Part shown: positions 7,272 through 31,732 of the stretch, piece by piece
Position numbering within the stretch: position 1 is the first letter of the stretch
Layout of the letters: each line of letters begins with the position of its first letter
Assembly (NCBI GenBank): GCA_018993265.1
Contig: JAGKSW010000050.1
Span: 1 to 35,224, forward strand
Source: Nostoc sp. TH1S01
Lineage (GTDB): Bacteria > Cyanobacteriota > Cyanobacteriia > Cyanobacteriales > Nostocaceae
Length of the DNA: 35,224 bases
Reading direction: 5' to 3'
Position numbers and translations under genes: made by a program
The notes under the pieces: model-generated
Told to the model about the DNA's origin: nothing
What the model saw: the letters and a program-made list of their open reading frames with translations, nothing else
Databases searched by the model: none

Positions 7272-10200
7272 CTATGCAATCACAGTGAAATCGGTATTGC
7301 TTAGGATTGGTCGATTAGATAGTTGAGCTATCTGAACCTTAGCTACACTGCCAATACCATCTTGATCAAAGAACAGTTTACCTGTATTTCTGTCGTAGAT
7401 AAAGCGATCGCTGGCTGTGGTAGCACTTGTACCCAAACGGAATAAGCTAGGGTCAAGTGTACCTAGTGCTTGATTAAGTCCAAAGTCTGACTGAGAAACA
7501 ACGAGACTATCAATCCCAGACACAAAGTCAGTAATGATATCAGAATTGACAGCGCCATTAGTCAGATAAAAGCTATCTCTACTATTTCCACCAGCCAAAG
7601 TATCTCGACCTAAGCCACCGATGAGGATGTCATTACCAGCACTACCAACCAGCATGTCATCACCAGCACCGCCATTTAAGATGTCATTCCCATCTCCACC
7701 ATAAAGAATGTCACTGCCATTTTCACCATAGAGGCTGTCATTACCAGCCCCACCATCTATCATGTCACTGCCATCTCCAGCATAAATGACATCGTTATTG
7801 CCTAAGCCGCTAATAATATCATTACCAGCTAGACCTCGAATGACATCGATTCTGCTAGTTCCCAGCAATATATCACTGCTGTTAGTGCCGTTAATCTGAT
7901 TGCTAGCAAGAGTAACTGTCAGATTGACTGCGGCTGTGGCGGTTAAATTACCATCACTAACGGTGTAGGTAAAACTGTCAGCACCAGAGAAGCCAATTTG
8001 CGGTGTGTAGGTAAAGGTATTGTCGTTATTTTGTACTAGACTACCTCTTGCGGGATTGGTGAAACTGTTGATAGTCAAAAGATTACTATCTGGGTCGCTA
8101 TCATTAGCTAGAACATTAATATTTACTGGTTGAATGTCAGTGGTTGTGGCGCTGTCATTTCTAGCAACGGGGGCTTCGTTAACGTTATTCACGGCTAAAT
8201 AAAAATTAGCTACCGCATCGGGAGTGCTGCCAACTGTGGGGTCATCAACAGCTACTATCACACTGTAGCTAGACTTGGTTTCAAAATCTAAGTTAGTGTT
8301 AGCACGCAAATACAAGACAGAATTATCGATTTCAAAGAAACTCGCATCTGTACCAGTCAGGCTGAGGTTATTTGTCCCTAACGCATCATCAATAATGGCG
8401 ATATCTGCAACTTTGATGCGGTTAGTTGTGTTGGTATTTTCATTAATGTTGGTAACAGTGTTGCGGAAGTTAACGGCTGTTGGTGCTTCATTGACATCAT
8501 TGACAGCTAAGGTGAAATTAGCCACCGCATCGGGAGTATTACCAACTGTGGGGTCATCAACAGCTACTATCACACTGTAGCTAGACTTGGTTTCAAAATC
8601 TAAGTTAGTGTTAGCACGCAAATACAAGACAGAATTATCGATTTCAAAGAAACTCGCATCTGTACCAGTCAGGCTGAGGTTATTTGTCCCTAACGCATCA
8701 TCAATAATGGCGATATCTGCAACTTTGATGCGGTTAGTTGTGTTGGTATTTTCGTTTATGCTAGCGATCGCATTATTGAATGTTACTGCCGTTGGTGCTT
8801 GGTTGGCTGGTAAATTAAACCTCGCTAAAACCGGATCATGGTCACTAACTTGATCAACAAATTCTGAGTTGATGTGAACCACATCATAGCCATCTAATCT
8901 GTTGAGTAAATTATTACTCACTAAAATGTGGTCAAGTACCTGCGCGTTACCTTCAAAATTGTAGGTGTAACGTTCGTTTTCCGGTAGAGTTTCAATTAGA
9001 GCAGTCAGCCCAGCACTTTCAAGCGTGTTAACAGGATTAGAAAACTCGAAATCGTTTAAGTCACCTAGCACCACCACATTCGCATTCGGGTCAATTGCCA
9101 AAATTTCTTGGACAAAATTTCTCACAATTGTTGCTTGTTGCTGGCGCTGCACTTCACTGCTGAGAGTCGGCGGTTGATTGACACCATATAAAGCTTGGTC
9201 GCCACCTTTAGAGTTAAAGTGATTGCCAATGAGATAAACACTCTGACCGTTGAAAACAAACTCACCAACTAAGGGTTTCCGACTGCTGTTAAAAGCAGAA
9301 TTGGTGGGGTCAATCAAACCAGGACTAGTAGAAAGAGTGGGAGTACCATCAACATTGGTAACTGAAATACTGGTAGTCGAACCACCGCCGGGACGGTCAA
9401 CAAAACTGACGCGGTTGGGATTAAACAAAAAGCCTACACGAATATTACCGCCTGGTTCACCTCCATTGGTGTCATCCACTGGGTTAATTTGCCGATATTC
9501 GTAGGTCGGGCCGCCAGCTGCTGCGATCGCATTGATTAATGTTTGATAAGTAACACTGGCATCAACTACACTGTCATTCGTCGCCCCATTGTTATCCTGA
9601 ATTTCTTCTAAAGAAATAATGTCAGGCGATCGCAGGTTATTAACAATGCGGTTAGCGAGGTTATTAAACTGGGTTGCACCGTCACCAGGATCGAGGTTTT
9701 CAACGTTGAATGTGGCTACTGTGAGTTGGCTGGTTGTCGGAGTGAGATTGCTGACTTCTCTGGTGAGAGAACTGGGTGCGGTAACTGTCAACGAAGTTGG
9801 CAAAACTTCAAAGTTATTGAAACTATAATCAACCACACCTGTAATTGTGTCGAAAGTCGCACCTACGCTGACTTGAGGAGTGCTGCCAGTCAACAAAGTA
9901 TCATCAATTTGGATGCGTTCTGGATTAAAGTCTCCAGGACTGATCACAATTCCACCACGGACTGTGCGTCCAGTAGCATTTGCGCCATTATCCGCCAATA
10001 CCCAAATCTCCCCAAAAGAATTTGTCGGGCTAACTGCAACCGGATTATTAATTTGTACCAGCATTCCTTCTACACTTTCGTAGAAATCAATGCCATCATT
10101 AGCTGGGTCAAATACACCATTGGTTTCAACACTACCATTGGCATCATCTTCAATCACAGTGTTGGGGATAGCACGTCCACCATTACCTAGAATCGTCGCC

Positions 10201-13004
10201 GCAGGTAGGGAGTTATTACGTGAAACAATACTAATTGTGGGGCTAGTAATTTCCGTAAGTGTCAAGTTATTTGTGCCACTTGCTCCACCAGCACGAAACT
10301 CTGTCACTCTGCCATTAACTAGTACAGAATCGCCTACTTGCACAGTTGGTGCGGAGGAAGTGAAAACAAAAATACCTTCGGAAGTGCGATCGTCATTGTC
10401 GGGGTTGGGGTCTTGCAAGTAAAATCCATTGGATCTGATAGCAGTCACAATCCCAGGTACATCAGCTACATTTTGTCCGTTTAACGGTGAAATGTGAGCA
10501 GTTCCTTGGATGTCGTGAATTCTTGGTGTGAGAACTACACTCCCAAGGGTAATGCTGTCGGTACGGAACTTTTTGAAGTTATTTTCTGAGAGGTCTTTAG
10601 TAGCCGTACCATCGTTGTAAAGAACGAGGTCGCCATCATCACTAATAAATTGAATTTGCGAAGTACTGGTGAGGTTATCAGGAATGCTGATAATACCTTC
10701 GGGATTGAAGCCAGCCGGAAATGTCGCTGCTCGTAATTGTGGCGCACTATTAGGATTACCATCCCAAGTGTACAAGCGAAAATCGTTGGGGGCTGTACTG
10801 GCGTTTCCGGCTGGGCCAGCAATAATTACATACTGATTCGTGTTATTCTGGCGAATTTCTCGAATTCCCCGACCACCTAAATCTAATTCAATTGGTGCGC
10901 CAAATTGCGCCGAGCCTTGTGTTCCACCATCACTGCTTAGTAAGCTGGTGAAATTTGTGACAGGAACGATGAGCGCGTTAGAACGTCCCCCAGGAGGAAC
11001 TTGTGGAGCGCGGAAAGCAACGTATGCCGTGGTACCATCGGGAGCAATGGTTAAACCTTCAATATTGTAGGCGTTTGTTTGTTGTGAGCCGACACCACTG
11101 GCAGCACTAGCAGCTAAACCGTAGTAGTTAGCACCCCTACCATGAAGGTTATTAACATCCCAGTTGATGATATCTTGGCGTAAAAAGTCGTAGCGACCTG
11201 TATAAGTGAGTGTGGTACTTGCACCTGTACCTGTAATGTCTGTAGCAAATACGCGGTTGCGATTAGGGCGACTACTACCACTCTCATTATTACTTTCTGA
11301 GCCTAACCAGAAAATGCGATCGCCTATCAGTGTTGATGCTTCAATATCTACTTCTCGCAGATTTCCAGAACTGTTAGTTTGTGTTAGTCCTAGAGAACTT
11401 GTAAAGTCAAAACCAGCTACAGGTAATCCTGAACTAGAGTAATCGTAAAGGCGCAAGACTTGATTTTCGTCATCCCCTGCTAAGAAAAATGTCCCACCTA
11501 CAGCAATAGCGGTGGAAGCATCGCTTGTACCTGTTAAAAATTGAGTTGTCGCTGTTCCGTTATTAGCAGAAGCTGCATAGGCAATTGTATAGTTGGCAGT
11601 ACTATTACCATCACTAACTGTCACTACAATATTGCTATTACCAACGCCGACAGGATTAATCCTGAGATTGCGACTGGTTCCAGAACCAGTTAATGTCAGG
11701 TTGGCGTTGGGAACCACAGCTGTGTTGCTGCTGCTAACTGTCACAGTCAAATTCGCTATATCTGTATCAGCATCAGCAATTGTGAAATCCAAACCCAGAG
11801 TTCTCGCGGGGTCATTGGGATTGTTAATTACACCACTAACTGCGCCTAAACCTGCAATTGGCAAAGCACCATTAGCATCTAATAAATCGCTGGTGCTGGT
11901 GGTGTTTAGGATAATCGTCGGTGCTTGTCCTACCTGACCTGCATTAACTGTTGTGGTAATTGCTGCCGCCGTATTATTGTTTTCGTTGCTTTCAGTAATA
12001 GTATTATTAGGATCTACTGTGGCAACACCACTAGTTAGAGTACCTGCGGTACTAGGAATCACCGTCACAGTTAAACTAGCATTGCTACCTGCATTGATAC
12101 TGCCACCTGTAAAGGTAACAATATTTCCTGATTGACTAGCAGTAAAACCATTAGCAACCGATGCACTGTTGAAAGTGACACCATCTGGTAAGGTATACTG
12201 CACCGTGATGCCAGTAGCATTAGCAGTACCACTGTTACTAACTGTCAGAGTATAGGTGAGAGGATTCCCCACAATCACCGGATCAGGAGCATCAGTTAGG
12301 CTAACAGTTAAATCTGGTTGAGAACCTATACCACCAGCGACACTAATATTACCTGTTGGTAAACTAGTGCCAGTGTTATTAAAAGTCCAGTTAGCTGCAT
12401 TGTTAATTGCGGCTAACCACTCAGAACGAGTCCCACTGCTGAGTGTGCTGAGATTAAATGCAGCGTAGGTTGCAGAATTGCTAAACAAAACTGCTGTATT
12501 CGCTGCCTGAGATAACCCCGGTGCTACATTACCCGTATTGGAAGTAGTCGCATCTTCAAATGCGCCAGTGTAATCAATTTGAGTAATAGCTGTAAATCCT
12601 GACAGCAGAGGGTTTGTACCTGTGGATTGTACCGCCGTAATTTGATCACCTGCTGTTGCACCTGTACCTTGAGCAAGTGATAAATCTGCATAACTACCTG
12701 CAATACCAGAAACCACCGATCCTGAGCGCGTCCAGGTGAAATTCGCCGAGGAATCATTAGTGCGAATAACTGTACCAGCAGGAATATCCGCATTAGCTGT
12801 AAATCGAATTAAGTTTTCGTTCCCATCAGCATCAGTAGCAGACACACCACGAAAACCTGTCCCAGTCCAGCCATTGTCTGTAAAGTAAATAACTGTACCA
12901 GAACCAATAGGCACTAAGTTAACGAAAGAAAAGGTATCAGGGCTACCATTATTGATGTAACCTACGATCGCAATATCACCAGGATTCAAATTTGTAGCTG
13001 CCAT
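7272..13004 (-). CDS. Very large RTX-type extracellular nuclease/phosphatase-like protein
   Basis: A 1910-residue multidomain exoprotein. In order: an N-terminal domain (about 1-220, LNPGDIAIVGYINNG ... VIYFTDNGWTGTGF); a DUF11/CARDB-like beta domain (about 225-340); a DUF3616-like beta-propeller-like region (about 495-800); an OB-like segment as in ExeM/NucH nucleases (about 830-920, NGFYLQDPNPDNDDRTSEGI); an endonuclease/exonuclease/phosphatase domain (about 1093-1397) with VATFNVENL, LEEIQDNNG, NHFNSKGGD, LGDLNDFEFS and SDHDPVLARF; two near-identical cadherin-like repeats (about 1405-1610); a tandem-type domain (about 1610-1700); and hemolysin-type calcium repeats (GGxGxDxLxG, about 1725-1815). 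No N-terminal signal peptide is present, as expected for type I secretion with a C-terminal signal. Probably it releases phosphate from extracellular DNA or phosphoesters. The substrate is not shown. Confidence 0.88.
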   Translation of the reverse strand: MAATNLNPGDIAIVGYINNGSPDTFSFVNLVPIGSGTVIYFTDNGWTGTGFRGVSATDADGNENLIRFTANADIPAGTVIRTNDSSANFTWTRSGSVVSGIAGSYADLSLAQGTGATAGDQITAVQSTGTNPLLSGFTAITQIDYTGAFEDATTSNTGNVAPGLSQAANTAVLFSNSATYAAFNLSTLSSGTRSEWLAAINNAANWTFNNTGTSLPTGNISVAGGIGSQPDLTVSLTDAPDPVIVGNPLTYTLTVSNSGTANATGITVQYTLPDGVTFNSASVANGFTASQSGNIVTFTGGSINAGSNASLTVTVIPSTAGTLTSGVATVDPNNTITESNENNNTAAAITTTVNAGQVGQAPTIILNTTSTSDLLDANGALPIAGLGAVSGVINNPNDPARTLGLDFTIADADTDIANLTVTVSSSNTAVVPNANLTLTGSGTSRNLRINPVGVGNSNIVVTVSDGNSTANYTIAYAASANNGTATTQFLTGTSDASTAIAVGGTFFLAGDDENQVLRLYDYSSSGLPVAGFDFTSSLGLTQTNSSGNLREVDIEASTLIGDRIFWLGSESNNESGSSRPNRNRVFATDITGTGASTTLTYTGRYDFLRQDIINWDVNNLHGRGANYYGLAASAASGVGSQQTNAYNIEGLTIAPDGTTAYVAFRAPQVPPGGRSNALIVPVTNFTSLLSSDGGTQGSAQFGAPIELDLGGRGIREIRQNNTNQYVIIAGPAGNASTAPNDFRLYTWDGNPNSAPQLRAATFPAGFNPEGIISIPDNLTSTSQIQFISDDGDLVLYNDGTATKDLSENNFKKFRTDSITLGSVVLTPRIHDIQGTAHISPLNGQNVADVPGIVTAIRSNGFYLQDPNPDNDDRTSEGIFVFTSSAPTVQVGDSVLVNGRVTEFRAGGASGTNNLTLTEITSPTISIVSRNNSLPAATILGNGGRAIPNTVIEDDANGSVETNGVFDPANDGIDFYESVEGMLVQINNPVAVSPTNSFGEIWVLADNGANATGRTVRGGIVISPGDFNPERIQIDDTLLTGSTPQVSVGATFDTITGVVDYSFNNFEVLPTSLTVTAPSSLTREVSNLTPTTSQLTVATFNVENLDPGDGATQFNNLANRIVNNLRSPDIISLEEIQDNNGATNDSVVDASVTYQTLINAIAAAGGPTYEYRQINPVDDTNGGEPGGNIRVGFLFNPNRVSFVDRPGGGSTTSISVTNVDGTPTLSTSPGLIDPTNSAFNSSRKPLVGEFVFNGQSVYLIGNHFNSKGGDQALYGVNQPPTLSSEVQRQQQATIVRNFVQEILAIDPNANVVVLGDLNDFEFSNPVNTLESAGLTALIETLPENERYTYNFEGNAQVLDHILVSNNLLNRLDGYDVVHINSEFVDQVSDHDPVLARFNLPANQAPTAVTFNNAIASINENTNTTNRIKVADIAIIDDALGTNNLSLTGTDASFFEIDNSVLYLRANTNLDFETKSSYSVIVAVDDPTVGNTPDAVANFTLAVNDVNEAPTAVNFRNTVTNINENTNTTNRIKVADIAIIDDALGTNNLSLTGTDASFFEIDNSVLYLRANTNLDFETKSSYSVIVAVDDPTVGSTPDAVANFYLAVNNVNEAPVARNDSATTTDIQPVNINVLANDSDPDSNLLTINSFTNPARGSLVQNNDNTFTYTPQIGFSGADSFTYTVSDGNLTATAAVNLTVTLASNQINGTNSSDILLGTSRIDVIRGLAGNDIISGLGNNDVIYAGDGSDMIDGGAGNDSLYGENGSDILYGGDGNDILNGGAGDDMLVGSAGNDILIGGLGRDTLAGGNSRDSFYLTNGAVNSDIITDFVSGIDSLVVSQSDFGLNQALGTLDPSLFRLGTSATTASDRFIYDRNTGKLFFDQDGIGSVAKVQIAQLSNRPILSNTDFTVIA
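8230..8753 (-). repeat. Exact internal duplication in the RTX protein gene
   Basis: Positions 8230-8441 and 8542-8753 (212 bp) are identical, with a period of 312 bp (104 codons). Each copy encodes a cadherin-like repeat (INENTNTTNRIKVADIAI ... VIVAVDDPTVG). Silent sites are also identical, so the copies arose recently or are kept alike by gene conversion. Confidence 0.92.
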
Positions 13005-26189: not shown

Positions 26190-29100
26190 ATGACCACCAC
26201 CCCCAAAGATCCGTTTTCACCCCAAGAAATTGCCGCCGAAGGTATTAAGCCAGAAGAATATGCAGAAATTGTGCGACGTTTAGGCCGCCATCCTAACAAA
26301 GCAGAACTGGGAATGTTTGGGGTGATGTGGTCAGAACATTGCTGTTACAAAAATTCTCGACCTCTACTCAAACAGTTTCCCACTACAGGCCCCCGCATTC
26401 TCGTCGGCCCTGGTGAAAATGCTGGTGTGGTTGACCTGGGTGAAGGACTACGCCTCGCTTTTAAAATTGAATCTCATAACCACCCTTCCGCCGTTGAACC
26501 CTTCCAAGGAGCTGCCACAGGTGTCGGTGGTATTCTGCGAGATATTTTTACAATGGGTGCGCGTCCCATTGCTTTGTTAAACTCATTGCGCTTTGGTTCT
26601 CTAGATGACCCTAAAACCCAAAGGCTATTTACTGGGGTAGTATCAGGAATCAGCCATTATGGTAACTGTCTCGTCAGTGATGAAACTTTTATTTGGCAAA
26701 ATCAAGACGGGATACATTTTGATACCATTGGCAACTTTGTGGAATCTCGCCTCACAACCAACGTCACGACTTTAGAACTCAATGATAGTGATGCGGTTCA
26801 AACTTTATCTTTAGATCCCGACAGCCAAACTGTTTGCTGGCAACCTGTACGGCGAATATTTAAACGACGTAGCCAACATTTGATCACCATCCGTACAGCC
26901 TTGGGACGTGCTTTGGTGGTTACGCCAGACCATCCGATGTTAATTCGCGCCAATGGTGAATGGGATATTGCAGTGGCGCAGTCTTTAAAAGTCGGCGATG
27001 AAATCCCGTTAATAACTGCATGGCCACAATTAACAGCAGAAAAAGACACAGCCTTAGATTTGCTGACTGGTTTAAATCCAGAAACTGCCATTGGGAAAGA
27101 TGTATACGTGCAGCTACCCGAAAATTGGCAAGTCACAGAGTCGGTGCGTACTGCACTGAGATTACTTGAACCTGCTGTTTACAAACGCCATCAATACTTA
27201 TCTACAGGTAGATTTCCTCTATCTTACTTTTTGGCTTTGGAACTGCTGCTAAATGTATCTCGTAGCGATATCCGCTTATTCCGGCGCGGTAAAGCAAATT
27301 ATATGAATGCAGTTATTCAGCCAAATAAATTGTTTGCTCGGTTAATTGGCTATTTTCTCTCAGAAGGCTGTGCTGCCAAAAACGGAAATACGTACAAAAT
27401 TGTTTTCACCTTCGCACATCATGAAACAGAGTATGTTGATGATGCGATCGCTGGTCTAAAATACTTGGGGTTACGCCCTTGTGTAGAAAAACGCGCTTCT
27501 ACCATTGCTGTTTACGCGACTTCTTGGCTATTCGGGCATTTCTTGAAGAATGTTTGGCAATGCGGCACAGAAGCCAGCAACAAAGCATTCCCTAACTTTG
27601 TCTTCCAGTGGTCACAAGAATTGCAGTATGAAGTCCTCAAAGGCTTATTCCGGGGTGATGGCTCAATAACCACCAAAACTCACGGTAATCACGCCAAAAT
27701 TAGTTTTGCTACCACTAGCCGCAAGTTATTTGAGCAAACAGTCCTATTACTGCAAACTCAAGGAATCATCCCATATATTTATTGCCAACCAGTAGGCGAA
27801 GCAGAAATTGAGGGACGCAAGCACATCCGTAAACCCTTATGGCAATTGGAAGTTAGTAATTTTGCGGCATTAAAAGCCTTAGCCACAGTTTTTAGTCAAG
27901 AGCGAAATCAGGAATTAGCCGTAGCTTTAAATCGTTACAGTGGTGCAAAACATTCATTTCCTCGGTTTACCCAGTCGGTAGCAGATGTAGCTACTGTCAA
28001 GATTCAGAGTATTGCACACCAAACCGTTGCCGAATGTGATGTTTATGATGTGGAAGTAGATAATACACATCTTTTTGTGACTTCATCGGGGATCGTGACA
28101 CATAATTGCGTCGGCGTTCCGACTGTTGGTGGCGAAGTCTACTTTGACCCTGCTTATGCCGGAAATCCCTTAGTTAACGTTATGGCACTGGGATTGATGG
28201 AAACGCCGGAAATTGTCAAATCTGGGGCATCGGGTATCGGTAATCCTGTATTGTATGTGGGTTCTACCACCGGACGCGACGGGATGGGTGGCGCAAGTTT
28301 CGCCAGTGCCGAATTAACTGATGCGTCGATGGATGACCGTCCGGCGGTGCAAGTCGGCGACCCATTTTTAGAAAAGTCGTTAATTGAAGCTTGTCTAGAA
28401 GCATTTAAAACTGGCGCAGTGGTCGCCGCCCAGGACATGGGTGCAGCCGGAATTACCTGTTCTACCTCAGAAATGGCCGCTAAAGGCGGTGTCGGCATTG
28501 AATTAGATTTAAATAAGATTCCGGTGCGGGAAACGGGGATGGTTCCCTATGAATATTTGTTGTCGGAATCTCAAGAAAGAATGCTGTTTGTTGCCCACAA
28601 AGGCAGAGAACAAGAGCTAATTGATATTTTCCATCGTTGGGGACTTCATGCGGTTGTTGCTGGGACAGTGATTGCGGAACCCATCGTCAGAATTTTATTC
28701 CGGGGTAAAATTGCGGCGGAAATTCCGGCTGATGCTTTGGCAGAAAATACACCACTTTACGAACGTGAGTTATTAGCAGAACCACCAGAATACGCCCGTC
28801 AAGCTTGGGCATGGACAGCCGATAGTTTACCTGCTTGCACAACTGCGGGGATCGGCAGCCACAGTTGGAACGATATCTTATTAACTTTACTCAATACACC
28901 CACGATCGCCTCGAAAAATTGGGTATATCGTCAATACGACCATCAAGTACAAAACAATACTGTCGTCCTTCCCGGAGGTGCAGATGCGGCTGTTGTTCGT
29001 TTAAGACCATTAGAAGCTATCCCCAATTTCACATCGCCAAATCTTAAATCTGCCGTTGCCGCTACAGTAGATTGCAATCCCCGCTATGTTTACCTTGATC

Positions 29101-29978
29101 CCTATGAGGGGGCTAAGGCTGTAGTTGCCGAAGCCGCCCGCAATCTTAGCTGTGTGGGTGCAGAACCATTAGCTGTTACCGATAACCTGAATTTTGGCAG
29201 TCCCGAAAAACCCATTGGTTATTGGCAATTAGCCGAAGCTTGTCGCGGTTTAGCAGAAGGTTGTCGAGAACTAGCCACACCAGTCACAGGCGGAAATGTC
29301 TCTCTCTATAATGAAACAGTCGATTCTCAAGGCAACCCCCAACCAATTTATCCGACTCCTGTGGTGGGTATGGTTGGTTTGATTCCTGATTTCACCAAAA
29401 TTTGTGGTCAAGCTTGGCAAGCAAGTGGCGATGTCATTTATTTATTAGGGTTAACTGTACAGTCCAAAGTGGAATTAGGCGCATCAGAATATCTGGCTAC
29501 CATCCACAATACTGTAGCTGGTAGACCACCACGGGTAAATTATGAATTGGAACGCCGTGTACAGCAGGTTTGCCGCGATGGTATTCGTTCTGGTTGGGTG
29601 CGTTCAGCCCATGATTGCGCTGAGGGCGGATTAGTTATAGCCTTGGCAGAATCTTCAATTGCTGGCAATTTGGGTGCAGAAGCGAAATTAGACATCTTGC
29701 CAAATCAGTTACAGCGCTTGGATGAAGTGCTGTTTGGTGAAGCTGGCGCAAGAATTATCGTTTCCGTAGCATCAGAACAACAAGAAATCTGGGAATCATA
29801 CTTACAGGAACATCTAGGTCAAGATTGGCAAAAACTAGGCATGGTTAGTAATCTCGATGCTGGTTTGACGGTTTTAACTACCGATAACCAGACCTTAATC
29901 ACAGTTAGTATGGAAGATATGAAGGATCGTTACAATAATGCGATCGCCAAACGTCTAGCTGCACACACTCAGGCCTAA
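26190..29978 (+). CDS. purL: Phosphoribosylformylglycinamidine synthase subunit PurL containing an intein
   Basis: PurL makes formylglycinamidine ribonucleotide from FGAR, ATP and glutamine-derived ammonia, step 4 of purine synthesis. The precursor is 1262 residues. Residues 1-159 and 640-1262 together form a 782-residue PurL, the usual cyanobacterial size. Marks: [48 protein letters not shown] and, after the intein, [36 protein letters not shown]-type [12 protein letters not shown], and [10 protein letters not shown]. The intein sits between N159 and C640 ([17 protein letters not shown]), a highly conserved region near the active site. The reading frame is open throughout, so PurL needs splicing to work. 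PurF follows 263 bp downstream in the same direction; PurQ and PurS are not in the window. Confidence 0.96.
26667..28106 (+). other. Intein within PurL, with LAGLIDADG homing endonuclease
   Basis: 480 in-frame codons (PurL precursor residues 160-639). It begins with Cys ([10 protein letters not shown], block A) and ends HN ([10 protein letters not shown], block G) before Cys+1, the residues needed for class 1 splicing. Block B is TPDHPMLI with T245 and H248, and block F is [14 protein letters not shown]. Between them is a two-motif dodecapeptide endonuclease: LIGYFLSEG (385-393, acid E392) and [10 protein letters not shown] (483-492, acid D490), so the endonuclease may still cut DNA. Its codon use looks like its host, and it contains a HIP1 site (about 27445), suggesting long residence. 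Removing it restores a normal HYGNCVGVPT stretch. Confidence 0.96.
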
Positions 29979-30241: not shown

Positions 30242-31732
30242 ATGATTCCCATTGATTCCGTCACTTCGGATGAATACCCCGAATCCAATTTCAACTCAAA
30301 TAATGACCGTCCTGACAAGCCTGAAGAAGCTTGCGGTGTTTTTGGACTCTACGCGCCAGGAGAAGATGTTGCTAAACTAACTTACTTTGGATTGTATGCC
30401 CTCCAACACAGGGGTCAAGAATCTGCTGGGATTGCTACTTTTGAGGGTACAAAAGTCCATCTGCATAAAGATATGGGCTTGGTGTCTCAAGTATTCAACG
30501 AATCTATTTTAGAAGAATTGCCGGGAAATCTTGCTGTTGGTCATACCCGCTATTCCACCACCGGTTCTAGTCGCAAAGTTAACGCCCAGCCGGCTGTGGT
30601 TGAGACTCGCTTAGGCAATCTTGCTCTTGCACATAACGGTAATCTTGTCAATACAACACAATTGCGTGATGAATTGCTTAAGAGCAATTTTAACTTAGTC
30701 ACGACAACTGACTCAGAAATGATTGCCTTTGCGATCGCTGAAGCAGTCAACGCTGGTGCAGATTGGTTAGACGGCGCAATTCAAGCATTTCACCGTTGCC
30801 AAGGAGCTTTTAGTTTAGTTATTGGTACACCAGTTGGGGTGATGGGAACCCGCGATCCCAATGGTATTCGTCCTTTAGTAATTGGGACTGTAGGTACTAA
30901 TCCCGTACGTTATGTATTATCTTCCGAAACTTGCGGTTTAGACATTATTGGCGCTGAATATCTGCGGGATGTCGAACCAGGAGAATTAGTTTGGATTACC
31001 GAAGAAGGTTTGGCTTCTTACCACTGGAGCCAGCAGCCGCAACGTAAATTGTGCATTTTTGAAATGATTTACTTTGCCCGTCCTGATAGTGTGATGCACA
31101 ACGAAAGTTTATACAGCTATCGGATGCGCTTAGGAAGACAACTCGCGGCTGAATCTAATGTCGAAGCCGATATTGTTTTTGGTGTACCTGATTCTGGTAT
31201 CCCGGCGGCGATTGGATTTTCCCAAGCTTCTGGTGTTGCTTACGGTGAGGGCTTGATTAAAAATCGCTACGTTGGGCGTACCTTTATTCAACCAACCCAA
31301 ACTATGCGCGAATCTGGTATTAAGATGAAACTCAACCCCCTCAAAGACGTGCTGGCGGGTAAACGAGTTGTAATTGTGGATGATTCAATTGTGCGGGGTA
31401 CAACCAGCCGCAAATTAGTCAAAGCCTTACGTGATGCAGGTGCAGCAGAAGTACACATGCGAATTTCTTCACCACCCGTCACTCATCCTTGCTTTTATGG
31501 CATTGATACCGATACTCAGGATCAATTAATTGCGGCTACCAAATCTGTTGAGGAAATTGCCCAACAATTAGAAGTAGATACTCTCGCCTACCTCAGTTGG
31601 GAAGGAATGCTTAAAGCCACAGGAGAAGACACCAATAGTTTTTGTTCTGCCTGCTTTACAGGAGATTACCCAGTTGCTATTCCTGAACAAGTTAAGCGTT
31701 CTAAGTTGATTTTAGAGAAGGTAGTAGTTTAG
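30242..31732 (+). CDS. purF: Amidophosphoribosyltransferase (glutamine PRPP amidotransferase)
   Basis: First committed enzyme of purine synthesis, transferring ammonia from glutamine to PRPP. It has 496 residues. Residues 1-30 are a propeptide removed to expose C31 (PEEA|CGVFGLYAPG), the N-terminal nucleophile of the glutaminase domain (about 31-260, with QHRGQESAGIA and GHTRYST). The PRPP site is VVIVDDSIVRGTTSRK in the type I phosphoribosyltransferase domain. Four cysteines match the [4Fe-4S] ligands of the Bacillus-type enzyme (KLCIFEM, HPCFYGID, FCSACFTGDYP). It should be regulated by purine nucleotides. It follows purL, a conserved cyanobacterial order. A long hairpin lies 30 nt downstream. 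Confidence 0.97.
   Translation: MIPIDSVTSDEYPESNFNSNNDRPDKPEEACGVFGLYAPGEDVAKLTYFGLYALQHRGQESAGIATFEGTKVHLHKDMGLVSQVFNESILEELPGNLAVGHTRYSTTGSSRKVNAQPAVVETRLGNLALAHNGNLVNTTQLRDELLKSNFNLVTTTDSEMIAFAIAEAVNAGADWLDGAIQAFHRCQGAFSLVIGTPVGVMGTRDPNGIRPLVIGTVGTNPVRYVLSSETCGLDIIGAEYLRDVEPGELVWITEEGLASYHWSQQPQRKLCIFEMIYFARPDSVMHNESLYSYRMRLGRQLAAESNVEADIVFGVPDSGIPAAIGFSQASGVAYGEGLIKNRYVGRTFIQPTQTMRESGIKMKLNPLKDVLAGKRVVIVDDSIVRGTTSRKLVKALRDAGAAEVHMRISSPPVTHPCFYGIDTDTQDQLIAATKSVEEIAQQLEVDTLAYLSWEGMLKATGEDTNSFCSACFTGDYPVAIPEQVKRSKLILEKVVV

Follow-up and report, generated by a model that had tools for sequence, protein, structure and literature searches.

Among described inteins, the archaeal PI-PkoII (2cw7), TliVMA and PhoVMA (7qss, 7qst) come closest to the element analysed here, with the same Hint domain, accessory region and two-motif endonuclease, but they sit in other host proteins and share 12–18% identity with it in Foldseek alignments. 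Passages of PMC1508164 state that dead endonucleases are expected to drift and give, for inactive VMA endonucleases, dS/dN below 4 in 70 of the 74 comparisons made; the fungal PRP8 and yeast VMA series, as these passages describe them, likewise include empty, full-length, decayed and mini alleles, with dS/dN as a gauge of the state of the endonuclease. Passages of PMC8966425 report that splicing of PhoVMA, whose endonuclease is dead, continues after the domain is removed and that TliVMA without its endonuclease suffers a strong loss of splicing, and propose a Hint-endonuclease mutualism from deletion experiments in archaeal inteins. This proposal runs counter to the homing cycle, in which a dead endonuclease is expected to decay.

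For cyanobacteria, passages of PMC5987646 describe five genes with inteins in Nostoc sp. N6, tabulated in its supplement, and those of PMC3610870 mention that Nodularia spumigena has two inteins, whose hosts they leave unnamed. Our search of the open-access literature, which did not extend to the intein tables of PMC5987646, where PurL may be listed, found no paper describing a PurL intein among those listed, in keeping with the suspicion of an initial sequence-only reading that PurL is not a commonly listed host. The best NCBIfam model for the PurL intein is the rSAM Tes intein-containing model NF045703 (3.9e-28), whose host differs, being a radical-SAM lipid synthase; among the matches listed there were intein-bearing models for other hosts and none for PurL. 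The element looks like a mechanistically ordinary class 1 homing intein in a host that looks unreported in the literature searched. With a mobile allele in an enzyme of purine synthesis, the prior picture of inteins widens, and about 50 natural variants at one site, mini-inteins included, are available for comparison.

The intein in purL of Nostoc sp. TH1S01

The window, by which we mean the whole 35,224-nucleotide stretch analysed, carries purL on the forward strand as a single frame of 1262 codons without an internal stop (26190-29978), and NCBIfam PurL models match the whole frame with E = 0 (NF002290) and 1.1e-267. The sequence-only reading had placed a 480-residue intein in this frame at 26667..28106, and its coordinates, junctions and frame proved exact to the base. 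The N-extein (26190..26666, PurL residues 1-159, ending in HYGN) is followed by the intein, which runs from Cys1 to His479-Asn480, or in precursor numbering from C160, starting at base 26667, to N639, ending at 28106; the C-extein (28107..29975) opens with C640, the +1 residue. Joining the exteins gives a PurL of 782 residues, as that reading had said, with calculated masses of 138.0 kDa for the precursor, 54.1 kDa for the intein and 84.0 kDa for PurL, close to the roughly 54 and 85 kDa it had given for the last two. The residue at -1 of the intein is Asn (N159), and Asn at this position is unfavourable in some inteins. A query with the spliced site at E ≤ 1e-20 found no second, intein-free purL in the organism's own genome, returning only the two halves of purL. 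Downstream on the same strand lies a frame (30242-31732) that we take to be PurF-like, which would make it a second purine-synthesis gene adjoining the intein host.

Intein and endonuclease profiles match the insert: Pfam Intein_splicing (E = 1.7e-15, residues 33-480) and LAGLIDADG_3 (E = 2e-13, in two stretches), and NCBIfam intein_Nterm (3.1e-9, residues 3-93) and intein_Cterm (1.1e-6, residues 458-480), the latter two past their curated cut-offs. Chance is excluded as an explanation. All of its parts lie on the forward strand. The N-terminal splicing region (26667..27014; residues 1-116, boundary approximate) holds Cys1 and the block B TPDH (26922..26933; T86 and H89). An accessory region (27015..27332; residues 117-222, boundaries approximate) leads from splicing to endonuclease sequence and is partly or mostly deleted in mini-inteins. 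The LAGLIDADG homing endonuclease domain (27333..27890; residues 223-408, boundaries approximate) has a first motif at 27333..27371, containing LIGYFLSEG and the putative catalytic acid E233 (27363-27365), and a second at 27636..27665, containing LFRGDGS and the putative catalytic acid D331. The C-terminal splicing region (27891..28106; residues 409-480) carries the block F D461 and the terminal VTHN.

To compare these residues across relatives, we used 51 complete PurL inteins left after removal of identical sequences; a 52nd, L142, stands outside the counts. Cys1, T86, H89, D461, H468, H479 and N480 are invariant in 51/51, and Cys+1 is present in the window and in the junctions inspected in relatives, which bears out the claim that every splicing block is in place. 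The window intein has the position-1 nucleophile (Cys1), block B TxxH, penultimate His and terminal Asn of class 1 inteins and is followed by a +1 nucleophile. It is inserted in frame, its host needs no such insert to be complete, as unbroken homologues demonstrate, and its endonuclease has two acid-ending motifs (E233 and D331). From these residues and established intein chemistry, we infer that Cys1 would attack the bond after N159, that the N-extein would pass to Cys+1, and that Asn480 would cyclise, with His479 assisting, to leave the PurL halves joined.

An AlphaFold2 model built with the window protein and 15 relatives reached a mean pLDDT of 70.9, with the second LAGLIDADG half poorly predicted (331-344 and 394-438 below pLDDT 50). 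Its best PDB match in Foldseek was PI-PkoII (2cw7, 6e-23), followed by archaeal VMA inteins (7qss, 5.5e-18) and PI-PfuI, and parts of the model matched Hint-only mini-inteins and, in the endonuclease domain, I-DmoI entries. A profile of 20 PurL inteins likewise found 2cw7 as its best PDB sequence match (4.9e-16). Taken with the distribution described below, we put the probability at about 0.94 that this is a class 1 intein with a LAGLIDADG endonuclease acting as a selfish mobile element at a repeatedly used site in cyanobacterial purL.

Occupancy of the site and alleles at different stages

Within the genus of the window, the intein is present in 5 of 11 genomes and purL is unbroken in the other six, whose flanks are 95–99% identical, so that the empty sites anticipated in relatives do exist. 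In the family, 214 of 217 genomes had a purL match and 21 of the 214 carry the intein at the same site. Two purL matches were seen in 22 genomes, namely those 21 and one more (G437), whose purL is unbroken and in which the intein had no match; in the remaining 192, with a single purL match each, the site was spanned among the matches listed. Across the order, 45 of 388 sampled genomes matched, and inspection of the junctions assigned 39 to PurL inteins, two of them on contigs that contain just the C-terminal junction, and six to other matches. Across the phylum, the 20-intein profile matched 9 of 386 genomes at 1e-8, all nine at purL, and a single-sequence search recovered the same nine plus three weak matches without a PurL flank. 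A scan of genome contigs with the window intein, which reaches close relatives only and has other phyla outside its range, gave 15 loci in named cyanobacteria, all in purL at the same codon; the hosts include Nostoc sp. FACHB-110 and FACHB-280, Nodularia, Dolichospermum, Calothrix PCC 7716 and Oscillatoria princeps. The PurL codon was identical in the first 24 intein-bearing loci examined. On an extein tree of 82 rows, made by a quick method with the best-scoring empty alleles instead of a random draw, there were at least 10 changes between occupied and empty, six of them forced by well-supported branches.

This distribution bears on whether the 480 residues could be a permanent, unexcised extra domain of a PurL subfamily. 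In favour of such a domain are the open frame and genus g202, where the insert is present at all eight purL loci found. Other cyanobacterial PurL proteins do carry the insert, but occupancy is polymorphic, and unbroken purL genes with 95–99% identical flanks occur in the same genus. The invariant splicing residues, the mini-inteins that lack the middle and retain the splice blocks, and the differing histories of intein and extein also speak against a permanent domain, to which we give next to no credence.

The same patchiness weighs on a second alternative, which follows the proposal of the sequence-only reading and in which the host has also taken over the splicing of a working intein to switch purine synthesis in response to redox state or stress. 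Of the seven cysteines in the window intein, C299 (in 46 of the 46 inteins with that region) and C457 (46/51) are well conserved and provide a lead, though C57 and C373 are variable among relatives. Cys1 is common to class 1 inteins. Redox-controlled splicing has a precedent in the mycobacterial DnaB intein, described in passages of PMC6195587. With 21 of 214 genomes in the family occupied, most relatives make purines without an intein, and we regard such a switch as very unlikely.

Sorted by their LAGLIDADG motifs, the 51 PurL inteins comprise 35 that look intact, 11 that are full-length with an acid or motif lost, and five mini-inteins of 200-261 residues with four different deletions among them. 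The decayed inteins vary, with the second acid kept in L019 and the first in L143. Empty, full-length, endonuclease-decayed and mini alleles coexist at one purL site. The PurL intein is very probably a splicing, homing element, and population patterns suggest that its nested LAGLIDADG endonuclease would cut empty purL and that repair would copy the intein in. The life cycle that would run from an empty site to an invaded one, then to a decayed endonuclease and finally to a mini-intein appears to be visible across cyanobacteria.

Four empty alleles (L047, L065, L067 and L029) have Ser at +1 (NSVGVPT) or Ala in place of Pro (CVGVATVGGE) and are possibly homing-resistant sites. The flanks of occupied purL alleles are themselves variable at many synonymous positions, and resistant and merely uninvaded empty alleles are for this reason inseparable.

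We compared synonymous divergence (dS) of intein and extein in pairs with extein dS below 1, which are not independent of one another. Where both endonucleases look intact, 31 of the 32 pairs had the lower dS in the intein, with a median ratio of 0.54; the two highest ratios were 0.99 (L007/L015) and 1.86 (L016/L079, the sole exception). Any stronger codon bias of the extein would raise the ratios past 1, the reverse of what the intact set displays. Pairs from genus g202 had the intein higher in 16/16 (median ratio 1.54), and the six other pairs, each with a mini-intein, were divided, with two ratios below 1 and four above. The clearest case is L006/L007, in which only 3 of 1446 bases distinguish the two inteins even though extein dS is 0.228; the first extein difference is 6 bases away from the insertion point on the downstream side and 106 on the upstream side.

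The endonuclease of the window intein might nevertheless be inactive already, the intein being inherited only with its host gene. Related lineages have lost the endonuclease (the 51 include 11 full-length inteins in decay and five mini-inteins), and the first acid is Glu instead of Asp. That Glu, however, is common to all 35 intact-looking inteins, the near-identical L006 and L007 included, and both acids are present in the window intein. In the window genus, omega was 0.100 for the endonuclease (186 codons), with omega = 1 rejected (2dlnL 81.7), while the splicing region gave 0.177 and the extein 0.034; the aligned extein of a Dolichospermum-like set gave 0.060. In addition, the intein had the lower dS in 10/10 pairs from the genus, with ratios of 0.40-0.91, though two of the intervals include 1. 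We consider an inactive endonuclease unlikely; the two-motif domain looks intact, as the sequence-only reading had described it, and is under purifying selection.

No vector emerged from the searches made. The whole purL gene had no plasmid match by megablast, a search that covers near relatives; three phage records, representing two phages, matched at 21–24% identity; and 36 pattern matches in viral contigs, from two short patterns, included no relative. A phage origin of the PurL intein is not supported.

An endonuclease without its acids in genus g202

The part most likely to surprise a specialist is a constrained dead endonuclease in a related genus. In genus g202 (family f57), purL was found in eight of nine genomes, the ninth being 82% complete, and all eight loci (L148, L149, L109, L130-L133 and L125) carry the intein, with no empty site. 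E233 is replaced by A or T and D331 by N in all seven complete copies, and also in the eighth, which is cut by a contig end, leaving the g202 inteins without the acids of a two-motif LAGLIDADG enzyme. Because all eight share this loss, it is most simply older than their common ancestor.

Omega for the g202 endonuclease was nonetheless 0.092 with seven sequences and 0.059 with the four closest, with omega = 1 rejected in both (2dlnL 493 and 247), and the splicing region gave higher values (0.124 and 0.131). These endonuclease values of 0.06-0.09 correspond to dS/dN of about 11–17 against the values below 4 for inactive VMA endonucleases given in passages of PMC1508164, a rough comparison since method and stretch differ. 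With the tree held fixed, the stem branch leading to g202 measured 1.28 for the endonuclease versus 0.80 for the splicing region, and the crown 0.92 versus 1.14. Among the seven, 111 of 194 endonuclease columns are invariant; 62 of these agree with the consensus of the intact inteins, and at 21 a residue that 85% or more of the intact inteins retain has been replaced. An open frame is needed for PurL, which bars stops and frameshifts but does not explain the scarcity of amino-acid changes.

Other decayed inteins served as a comparison. The ratio of endonuclease to splicing-region tip lengths was 0.68 for the 35 intact inteins, 0.85 for the seven from g202 and 1.16 for four other decayed ones, of which L143 alone lay below 1 (0.192 vs 0.265). 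Omega for the endonuclease versus the splicing region was 0.193 versus 0.099 in L019+L081+L079 and 0.143 versus 0.113 in L147+L139+L095, and 0.128 versus 0.120 in the intact trio L008+L077+L079. The contrast between decayed and intact is modest, partly because the trees mix branches from before and after decay. The main point about g202 rests on a crown omega far below 1 after both acids were lost and not on this contrast.

The likeliest account is that the dead g202 domain still functions, in support of splicing or in binding DNA. Mean charge gives a mixed picture: on chosen endonuclease strands, picked from a middling model, it is +5.1 in g202 versus +3.6 in intact inteins, and over the whole endonuclease region +2.1 versus +4.5. 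We hypothesize that the g202 intein has been domesticated, being present at every purL locus found, its acids having been lost once the stem had gone through a burst of change and the dead domain since constrained either for splicing, as in the proposed Hint-endonuclease mutualism, or for DNA binding; we hold the odds for this to be even. If true, nature has set up an experiment in the PurL allele family, with endonucleases that are active, dead-but-constrained, decaying or deleted at one site. The family also allows a test of whether a nuclease-dead endonuclease can be kept because splicing needs the domain.

Other inteins and a further protein of the window

Elsewhere in the window, on the reverse strand (7272-13004), is a 1910-residue protein with RTX repeats and cadherin-like, CARDB and Exo_endo_phos domains, perhaps a large secreted nuclease or phosphatase.

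The best non-PurL match among the 388 order genomes (E = 2.6e-42) is an intein in what we take to be a cyanobacterial UDP-sugar dehydrogenase (L110:747-3512, forward strand; L111:1198-3963, reverse). It starts with CLVGTE, as do some PurL inteins, and likewise lies directly before a Cys (GGH-CIPLDP), but it differs in host gene and site, and its link to the PurL clade is a very long branch. A second match in the organism's own genome (G000:C67) was considered as a further copy of the PurL intein and rejected, as it is a different intein, in DnaE. This DnaE frame (L113:1746-5642, forward strand) carries an apparently full-length LAGLIDADG intein (GPGRG-C...HN-SAAGS) upstream of the apparent N-half of the split DnaE intein.

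Three further hosts were met. A presumed UDP-glucuronate decarboxylase-like epimerase (L011:1-3165, forward strand) apparently has two separate inteins in one protein, and what is presumably a phosphoenolpyruvate synthase-like protein (L129:1119-4913, forward strand) has one at TNSGGRT-C...N-CHSAII. The third, which we assume to be GyrB (L112:1792-5373, reverse strand), contains an intein with an intact-looking LAGLIDADG domain.
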